From Betaproteobacteria bacterium HGW-Betaproteobacteria-7 (GTDB lineage Bacteria; Pseudomonadota; Gammaproteobacteria; Burkholderiales; Rhodocyclaceae), in contig PHCE01000014.1 in the NCBI GenBank assembly GCA_002840765.1, positions 62,001 to 126,000 on the forward strand: 64,000 bases of DNA, in the 5' to 3' direction. The position numbers and the translations under genes were made by a program. This document shows positions 60,649-64,000 of this stretch, piece after piece; positions within the stretch are counted from its first letter, which is position 1, and every line of letters starts with the position of its first letter. The notes beneath the pieces are model-generated. The model ran no database searches. It saw only the letters and a list, made by a program, of their open reading frames with translations, and was not told the origin of the DNA.

Positions 60649-60671
60649 AAAAAGGGCGCCGCAGCGCCCTC
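60649..60671 (-). terminator. Intrinsic terminator downstream of 60695-61102 gene
   Basis: Minus strand agggcgc-tgcg-gcgccctttttc. Confidence 0.75.
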
Positions 60672-60694: not shown

Positions 60695-61102
60695 TCAGGC
60701 AGTCACATTCACCAGGGTACCCGTCGTCTGTCCGAAGGCATTGGTAACCGGCTGTGGTGCAGCCACTTCAACTTGAACCGCAGGGGCCTGTGTTGCCACC
60801 GCTTCAACAACCTGACCAACCTGCTGGTTGAGCTGCACCAGCATGTCATCTTGGGATTTCATCGCCACCAGACCGCGCCGCGCATTTTCCGCCGTGCCTT
60901 GCGCCTGACTCGACTGGACCTTAAGGGAGCTGGCATTCTCCTGCGCCCGGTCAGCCGCCACCTGCGCCTGGCGTGCTCTGGCCTGCAGGGAACGCGCCTG
61001 CTGCTCGGCCTGATCGGCATTCCGCTGCGCCTGTTGCTGCTGAATCTGCCCCCAGATTCCGCTACCGGGCGACTGCAATCCGGAACTTGCGGAAACTGCC
61101 AT
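60695..61102 (-). CDS. Small Gln/Ala-rich coiled-coil protein with C-terminal signature PQPVTNAFGQTTGTLVNVTA
   Basis: 135 aa; C-terminus paralogous to 61139-61375. Confidence 0.75.
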   Translation of the reverse strand: MAVSASSGLQSPGSGIWGQIQQQQAQRNADQAEQQARSLQARARQAQVAADRAQENASSLKVQSSQAQGTAENARRGLVAMKSQDDMLVQLNQQVGQVVEAVATQAPAVQVEVAAPQPVTNAFGQTTGTLVNVTA

Positions 61103-61138
61103 GATCCGCCTCCAGCGATTCCGTTACCGTCCGCCCGT

Positions 61139-61375
61139 TCAGGCGATGACGTTGATCAACGTGCCGGTGCGCTGCCCTTGCGTATTGGTCACTGGCTTCG
61201 GCGCCTCTTCCGCACGTTCGACACGCTGCTCGGGACGCGGCTGCTCCTGCTGCGCGGTCTGCTGGGCCTGGCGAGCTTGCTGTGATTGTTGCGCCTGTTG
61301 CGATTGCTGCGTCTGACTGGCGTTGGCCGGCGAAGTAAAGGCGTTGGCCGCTGAACTAACTGATTGGATATCCAT
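61139..61375 (-). CDS. Small Gln-rich protein with C-terminal signature PKPVTNTQGQRTGTLINVIA
   Basis: MDIQSVSSAANAFTSPANASQTQQSQQAQQSQQARQAQQTAQQEQ...; paralogous C-terminus. Confidence 0.75.
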   Translation of the reverse strand: MDIQSVSSAANAFTSPANASQTQQSQQAQQSQQARQAQQTAQQEQPRPEQRVERAEEAPKPVTNTQGQRTGTLINVIA

Positions 61376-61659
61376 GATCGACTCCTGATAAATCAACATC
61401 CCGCTTTGACTCTACACCATTCGGCGAAATATTCCAGCAGGACGAAACCGCTCCACCAGCCGGCAGGCATGCAATATGCATCACAAGAGCATCCGACCAT
61501 CACCAAACCCGAGGTGCCCATCATGCTTTCCGAAGAAATGCTGGCCTGGCTCGGCACTGGCGCCGTCTTTCCCTATGCCGCAGAAGCGCTGTGGAGCTGG
61601 GCAAGGACAAAGCGCAAGCACCGGAACGGTGCCCGCACGCACTGCCGCTAGGCATCCAC

Positions 61660-61863
61660 TCAGATGCCGAGCACTGTCGCATTTGCCACACCGCCGCCTA
61701 AACAGGCGTAGCGTGAAGGCAATGCACCAGGAAACCTCCAGCCGAACAACAACTCCTCTGCATCGGCCAGCGGCGCCCCGGAAGCCAGAACATGCTCGGA
61801 CAGACTGGCAAAAGGCGCCAGACGCATCCAGAACAGCGCTTCTTCATTGAGTCGGACAGACAT
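61660..61863 (-). CDS. Small uncharacterised ORF
   Basis: MSVRLNEEALFWMRLAPFASLSEHVLASGAPLADAEELLFGWRFPG... Confidence 0.4.
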   Translation of the reverse strand: MSVRLNEEALFWMRLAPFASLSEHVLASGAPLADAEELLFGWRFPGALPSRYACLGGGVANATVLGI

Positions 61864-62486: not shown

Positions 62487-64000
62487 TCAGACCTGATAAG
62501 CGACCAGGCGGTTGATGTCCGGGATCTGGATATGGCGGGATCGTGCCTGGATCAGGCCAGCCTCGCTGAAGTCGCGGAATATGCGCGACAGGGTTTCCGG
62601 CGTGATGTTGAGCAGCGAGGCGATCAGCTGCTTGGTAGCCGGCAGTTCGACGATCAGCCGCCCGCTGGCCTGGATGCGGGCGTGCTGGAGCAGGTAACCG
62701 ATGACCCGCTCGGCGCCGGTGCGCAGCGTGTAGGATTCGACGCTGTACACTAGGTCGTGCTGGCGCGCAGCCAAGCTGACCATCAACCGGCGGGCAAATT
62801 TCTTGTCCTTGTCGAGCAGAGCCAGCAAAGCAGCGCAACTGACCTGCAGCACCTCTGCATCGTCGACCGCTTCGGCGAAATAGGGATAGGTGCTGTCCAT
62901 GACGACCTCCGCCTCGCCGATGCTCTGCCCGCAGCCTAAGATGCCGAGCACCTTCCTGACGCCCTGCGGCGAGGAAATGGCGAGCAGGATGTAGCCGTCG
63001 GCGACCAGAAAGACACCGGCCGAGGGGTCGCCCTTGGCGAAGAGGATCTTGCCCTTCTGCAGGCGCCGGGCTCGCGTGGCGGCAACCAATTGGGCCCGGT
63101 CCTTAGCGGCGACTTCCTTGAACAGCGTGTGTTCGGCCAGGAAGGCGGCAATCGCCGCCGGCCCCATCGGCTTGGCACTGGCAGCGGGCAATTTCCCGGC
63201 GACGCCGTCGCGTCGCTGGCCGGTTTGCTGGCTGATGCCCGAAAGAAAGCTACTGCGGATCTCGGCGAGGCGCCGGGCCTGCTGCTGGATGTCGACCTGG
63301 GCAAGTTCGGCGGCCCGGTTGGTCGAAACATCTTGAATGATCGACATGGCGACCGGTTCGCCATGAATAACGAACTGCGCCATGCTCATTTGCGTCGTTA
63401 GCTGCTGGCCGGCCTTGGTGACGAGGGTCATTTCGCACTCGAACTTGCCGGTAACCAGCAGTTCGCTGATCAGCAGGGGGAAACGGGCCACCTCGTCGGG
63501 CGCCACCAAGTCGAGGAGCGAACGGCTGAGCATTTCCGCCGGGTCGTAGCCCAGCAGACTGCAGGCCGCAGGATTCGCATCGACGACGCGGCCAGGGGTC
63601 AGGTTGGCATCCAGGCGGGTGATGATGACGGGCAGCGTCCCGTTATGGAACAGCGCGCGGAAGCGCTCTTCGCTGGCCGCCAGTTCTGCGGTCTGCTCGG
63701 CGACCAGCTCGGTCATCTGGTTGCTGCGGTTTCGCTGGGCCTGTTCCGTCGCCTGCAGGTGCTGGTTGCGTTCGGCCATGAAGGCGTAGAGCCGGGCCAG
63801 CGAGCTGTTGGCTGCCTCGTGCACAGGCAGTTCCGTGAGGCCGGCGACGGCCGGCTTTTCGCCCCCGGCCTCCGCCGGCTCCTTGCGCAGCAGGCGCGCC
63901 AGCCGTTGATCCTCGCCCAGCATGTGATAGATCAGCCAGTTACTGAGAAAATCCATCAACTGGTGACCGGTTAAGACGCCCGCCGACAGTTCATCGACCA
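62487..64000 (-). CDS. Hemerythrin(partial)-PAS-cyclic nucleotide-binding-HTH_Crp regulator, N-terminus beyond window end
   Basis: Frame open to 64000 (VDELSAGVLTGHQLMDFLSNWLIYHMLGED); PAS SEERFRALFHNGTLPVIITRLD; cNMP region KGKILFAKGDPSAGVFLVADGYILLAI; HTH LPATKQLIASLLNITPETLSRIFRDF. Confidence 0.82.
   Translation of the reverse strand, partial: VDELSAGVLTGHQLMDFLSNWLIYHMLGEDQRLARLLRKEPAEAGGEKPAVAGLTELPVHEAANSSLARLYAFMAERNQHLQATEQAQRNRSNQMTELVAEQTAELAASEERFRALFHNGTLPVIITRLDANLTPGRVVDANPAACSLLGYDPAEMLSRSLLDLVAPDEVARFPLLISELLVTGKFECEMTLVTKAGQQLTTQMSMAQFVIHGEPVAMSIIQDVSTNRAAELAQVDIQQQARRLAEIRSSFLSGISQQTGQRRDGVAGKLPAASAKPMGPAAIAAFLAEHTLFKEVAAKDRAQLVAATRARRLQKGKILFAKGDPSAGVFLVADGYILLAISSPQGVRKVLGILGCGQSIGEAEVVMDSTYPYFAEAVDDAEVLQVSCAALLALLDKDKKFARRLMVSLAARQHDLVYSVESYTLRTGAERVIGYLLQHARIQASGRLIVELPATKQLIASLLNITPETLSRIFRDFSEAGLIQARSRHIQIPDINRLVAYQV

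Follow-up and report, generated by a model that had tools for sequence, protein, structure and literature searches.

The flagellar export switch requires the five C-terminal residues of FliK, which have been proposed to engage the cytoplasmic domain of FlhB (PMC13344023, PMC8545394). The FliK of Caulobacter ends in LDIRI, five residues that are functional and also serve as a Lon degron (PMC8545394). Further, the small protein LarA binds and activates Lon through its last five residues, which are transferable (PMC10665427). In a literature search that covered few subscription papers, no paper was found that connects the FliK tail with YjfB or with other small proteins. YjfB itself is a 'putative motility protein', for which we know of no function or mechanism. 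Here, we describe a pair of small proteins, A and B, whose common C-terminal tail resembles the ends of FliK and YjfB.

The A/B gene pair and its common tail

In the window, i.e., the whole 64,000-nucleotide stretch of DNA analyzed, genes A and B adjoin folB/DHFR (Table 1). A is located upstream of B, with 36 nt between them and a good ribosome-binding site on each, and the two are read as one transcription unit, for which the terminator-like hairpin after B would be the end. This hairpin was not flagged by a strict terminator scan. The candidate -10 element of the pair was not picked up by a consensus promoter scan, and TAnnnT sites were clustered about 25–44 nt upstream of A orthologues.

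Table 1. Positions of genes A and B and of their associated elements in the window.
Feature	Position	Strand	Description
Gene A	61139-61375	minus	78 aa; start MDIQSVSS (Ser-rich), disordered Gln/Ala/Glu-rich body, C-terminal tail; stop codon 61139-61141
Tail of A	61142-61204	minus	APKPVTNTQGQRTGTLINVIA; alignment and profile comparison
Ribosome-binding site of A	61382-61386	minus	AGGAG, 6 nt upstream of A; read from sequence
Possible sigma-70-type -10 of the pair	61409-61414	minus	TAGAGT; weak, putative
Gene B	60695-61102	minus	135 aa; start MAVSASSG, long predicted helix and C-terminal tail; stop codon 60695-60697
Tail of B	60698-60760	minus	APQPVTNAFGQTTGTLVNVTA; alignment and profile comparison
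Ribosome-binding site of B	61109-61113	minus	GGAGG; read from sequence
Terminator-like hairpin 3' of B	60649-60671	minus	AGGGCGC-TGC-GGCGCCCT, then a T run; read from sequence

Two further reading frames were noted upstream of the pair. A 67-aa ORF (61660-61863, minus strand) gave no Pfam match, and its counterpart adjoins the pair at another locus (L033). The second frame (62487-63998, minus strand) runs past the window (L102 8488-10296) and encodes a regulator in which PAS and cyclic-nucleotide-binding domains are combined with a Crp-type DNA-binding domain; its N-terminus lies beyond the window and has a haemerythrin-like appearance (DQQHRGLVDLVNE).

The first-pass annotation had described A and B as adjacent small proteins with only the C-terminus in common, and this held: both open reading frames are present, they share only their C-terminal 20–23 residues, and a comparison of the A-family and B-family profiles aligned nothing but the last 23 columns (E 5.5e-16). 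The window and a 400-kb slice of a congener together gave 4869 stop-to-stop frames of at least 50 aa, of which only A, B and one YjfB ended in the tail motif, and the likeness of the two tails is more than chance. The tail consensus is P-V-x-N-x-x-G-[QE]-x-[TV]-G-x-x-[IVL]-[ND]-[VT]-x-A-stop, with almost invariant positions at N-15, G-12, G-8 and A-1, and some A tails end in VNTFA. Across orthologues the tail is nearly invariant, whereas the bodies drift. All synonymous codons were found in use at the conserved residues of 143 tails, which indicates that selection acts on the protein.

Neither A nor B contains cysteine or a hydrophobic N-terminal stretch, in agreement with the earlier remark that both lack a classical signal peptide. 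A sortase- or PEP-CTERM-type sorting tag was rejected, as the tail consensus has neither a hydrophobic segment nor a basic C-terminus.

Distribution and bodies of the family

The genome containing the window (36 contigs, 100% complete) encodes the tail three times, namely in A, in B and in a third, unlinked 68-aa protein (C6:310848-310907), with 12 of the 21 tail columns invariant in an alignment of the last residues of all three. A stop-anchored DNA pattern run over the whole genome returned these three copies and two other matches, one lying out of frame within a longer coding stretch and the other ending in TGG, without a stop codon. The genome-wide count of carriers suggested in the first-pass annotation is therefore three proteins rather than only these two, and the third copy refutes the view of the pair as a tandem duplication with decay.

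Beyond this genome, about 140 distinct tails were found. At a cut-off of E<=1e-3, a tail profile built from 51 sequences detected the tail in 60 of 200 genomes from the taxonomic family and in 33 of 399 genomes from across the order, with several other families represented; among the named carriers are Azonexus, Dechloromonas, Rhodoferax, Curvibacter and Sterolibacterium. Two tail genes stand in tandem at 42 of 102 distinct loci, where the automatic A/B labels are rough. The order is A before B in the genus of the window and in Comamonadaceae, and B before A in several other genera. With this spread over families and both gene orders, the tail is not a local duplicate, and it is not decaying.

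With regard to the bodies, A orthologues (60–95 aa) start with M[ADE][IV]xSVSSS, followed by a drifting Gln/Ala/Glu-rich stretch, and B orthologues (90–145 aa) have a conserved helical core. The predicted structure of B (mean pLDDT 76.6) is a single helix spanning residues 14–104, with a weak beta-hairpin in the tail (117–120 and 126–130) at a pLDDT of about 50–66. Searches of A, B and their orthologues against Pfam and NCBIfam gave only generic coiled-coil or low-complexity matches below cut-off. A PDB sequence search with the B profile gave chance coiled-coil matches (best E 0.023), a fold search with the B model returned nothing below E 7, and plasmids contained no homologue of B and none of consensus A. 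The alanine-zipper lipoprotein model (PF11839/NF040598) was rejected, since only 10.4 of the 23.1 bits required were reached and there is no cysteine in either protein. The tail was also seen in more distant families of the order, where the bodies that bear it are short and often Asp/Gly-rich (GFDGDGDGSAGGG and similar; GFDGDGDGS) rather than Gln/Ala-rich (L173, L178-L182).

A and B represent an undescribed betaproteobacterial family (Burkholderiales in GTDB) of small proteins, often two per operon. The family plan is one disordered protein (A) and one helical rod (B), each joined to a common C-terminal peptide. Of the original proposal of a variable body plus a constant tag, the idea of a small family recognised by one partner fits well with the third copy and with the tails on varying bodies elsewhere, and the part that saw in the tag a sorting, export or polymerisation signal stays a suggestion.

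Terminal motif of FliK and YjfB and co-occurrence with flagella

In fetched flagellar clusters, where FliK was identified as the gene between fliJ and fliL, 16 of 17 FliK proteins end in G-x(0-3)-[IVL]-[DN]-x-x-A (G[LMK]V[DN][TLIV]FA or similar), and among the 1195 predicted genes of these clusters the motif was found in no gene except fliK. FliK ends in VDIFA or VDTFA in E. coli, Salmonella, Klebsiella and Cupriavidus and in VDYYA in P. aeruginosa; one P. silesiensis FliK ends in ISTYA, outside the motif. Most YjfB proteins (PF14070) of the genomes with the family end in LGxx[IV][DN][VTI]xA. The tails of A and B conform to both the FliK-type C-terminal G-x(0-3)-[IV]-[DN]-x-x-A and the YjfB-type Gxx[IV][DN]xxA, and motif matches among 2012 control proteins were confined to family members and YjfB.

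This likeness is one of motif level, not demonstrable homology, as judged from sequence comparison. hhalign of A or B against YjfB and FliK gave no significant homology beyond the motif (probability of 2.3% for A vs. YjfB), and FliK tails gave no scoring match to the 21-residue tail profile. YjfB ends belong to the FliK pentapeptide class (e.g., VDTFA), and in several genomes yjfB is near flagellin genes (L065-L094, L100, L255, L256). The E. coli FliK (L204 6387-7514) ends in LQGRVTGNSGVDIFA, a longer match to the family tail (LQGRVTG...) than in other FliKs; this is probably chance, given that the FliKs of Salmonella, Klebsiella and betaproteobacteria do not have it.

Carriers of the tail are nearly all flagellated. 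Order-wide, the flagellar export gate protein FlhA was found in 32 of 33 carriers (E<=1e-3) vs. 279 of 399 genomes overall (Fisher p 1e-4), and at the genus level in all 17 carrier genera vs. 122 of 158 (p 0.013). Within the taxonomic family, flagellin and FlhA were both missing in 1 of 60 carriers vs. 18 of 140 non-carriers (p 0.015). For this count, four of the FlhA-negative genomes were taken to be identical with the four remaining flagellin-negative ones. Single genomes of two genera (g47 and g60) have neither flagella nor tail, and the other sampled members of these genera have both. These p-values are indicative, because kinship was handled only through genus counts and a few within-genus contrasts.

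The exceptions comprise G126 (99% complete; L251, L141), with an A-type tail protein and YjfB and no match for flagellin or FlhA, and G478, an 82%-complete assembly that carries the tail without an FlhA match. A contaminated assembly (G348) contains a true but weakly scoring member beyond the E cut-off and gave no FlhA match. Within the taxonomic family, YjfB, used as a positive control, co-occurred with flagella at p 1e-8, again with G126 as the exception, and carriage of the tail was not associated with YjfB (p 0.87). Most flagellated genomes do not have the A/B pair, which is consequently dispensable.

The neighbours of the pair across lineages are not flagellar and differ by lineage, with nothing conserved apart from local synteny; no protease or secretion gene, which the first-pass annotation had proposed to look for, is next to the pair. 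Flagellar neighbours were found in two exceptions, an FlgB-like gene by the third copy and yjfB beside A/B in one genome (G038). The former encodes an orphan second FlgB-like rod protein of 221 aa (L101 8484-9149; G000:C6, about 311.5 kb), which is encoded 0.6 kb downstream of the third copy and is 49% identical to the FlgB of a congener over 120 aa. Upstream of A/B no sigma-28 sites were detected (mean score 7.68 vs. 7.59 in shuffles), and sigma-28-type sites are present upstream of YjfB (8.52 vs. 7.55).

Possible roles of the tail and comparison with known systems

The resemblance of A and B to FliK and YjfB, together with the co-occurrence, points to a role in flagellum building without proving it. 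We tentatively favor, while giving it somewhat less than even chances, that A and B assist flagellar type III export as small accessory proteins and that their tail is read by the partner of the FliK tail. The short Ser-rich N-terminus would render them export-competent or keep them soluble, and the free C-terminal G-x-x-[IV]-[ND]-[VT]-x-A would be read by the partner of the last five FliK residues, which we infer to be most likely the FlhB cytoplasmic domain. In this way, A and B may tune the hook-to-filament switch or act as competitors of FliK at the FlhB site. Given the precedents of FliK, the Lon degron and LarA, we prefer that A and B present a FliK-type terminal peptide to one of these readers, FlhB or Lon. 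A bolder extension, which we consider rather doubtful, is that small proteins with a FliK-type switch peptide on bodies unrelated to one another work in trans, either on the export gate (FlhB) or on the turnover of FliK, that this forms a new layer of hook-to-filament control, and that YjfB belongs to the same functional class.

Several other explanations were weighed. The tail may be a C-terminal Lon recognition tag, either a degron or a Lon-activating peptide, with A and B as short-lived regulators or LarA-like activators and the flagellar link arising through FliK and other motility proteins as Lon substrates. Such a role would suit the Caulobacter FliK and LarA precedents, since the A/B tail occupies the same chain position and has a free hydrophobic end. 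We regard it as unlikely, however: the conserved stretch, in which Asn and Gly are invariant, spans about 20 residues and so exceeds known Lon degrons in both length and precision. Further, Lon is, to our knowledge, present in nearly all relatives, which leaves the confinement of the tail to flagellated genomes unexplained. It is this restriction that ranks FlhB before Lon as the reader of the tail. Equally unlikely in our estimation is that A and B are substrates exported via the flagellum or another secretion route, with a beta-hairpin-like tail driving self-assembly, capping or surface attachment. Disordered Ser-rich N-termini without a Sec signal, as in FlaG and YjfB of the same genomes, the weak hairpin in the B model and the confinement to genomes with FlhA are consistent with export, but the confidence of the hairpin is low and without a fold match, flagellar-type signals have no testable consensus, and adhesin or polymer repeats are absent.

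An unrelated housekeeping function appears improbable, though less so than either Lon recognition or export as substrates. Here, the likeness to FliK and YjfB ends would be convergence on a short hydrophobic C-terminus and the co-occurrence would stem from shared genome size or phylogeny; the shortness of the motif, the vegetative-looking promoters and the lack of flagellar neighbours agree with this. However, no other protein of the three control sets had the motif, and the association persisted at the genus level and in the within-genus contrasts. Finally, the adjacency of the genes and their common tail might suggest a simple tandem duplication after which one body decayed. To this reading, the conservation of both body types across taxonomic families, the two gene orders and the unlinked third copy leave a negligible probability.

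If separate small proteins do bear the same terminal peptide as FliK, this peptide and its reader could be studied apart from the FliK ruler, which bears on how the last residues of FliK flip the switch, and the natural set of about 140 tails would show which positions matter. Should the flagellar link fail, what remains is a clear protein family that had not been catalogued and that is marked by its constant C-terminal tag.

Among known systems, FliJ (TIGR02473, PF02050) is a coiled-coil export component against which some Comamonadaceae B orthologues score weakly; B was rejected as a FliJ relative, since the best score (23 bits vs. a cut-off of 50.45) was no better than those of other coiled-coil models. 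LarA, the alphaproteobacterial Lon activator (PMC10665427), was compared by description; it is likewise a small protein acting via its last five residues and differs in ending in histidine and being heat-shock induced. FliK (Flg_hook, PF02120) shares with A and B the free C-terminal G-x(0-3)-[IV]-[DN]-x-x-A after a disordered stretch and a tie, almost complete, to flagellar export. It differs in its size (330–470 aa), its Flg_hook switch domain, for which Pfam gave no match in the A or B families, and its gene position between fliJ and fliL, which A and B do not occupy; the real FliK of the relatives sits in the fli cluster. YjfB differs from A and B, which gave no match to PF14070, in its conserved central helix (LKKAxD) and its sigma-28-type sites. 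It is similar to them in being small, in starting with M[DE][VI]xSIAS, in its terminal LGxx[IV][DN][VTI]xA and in its occurrence with flagella.
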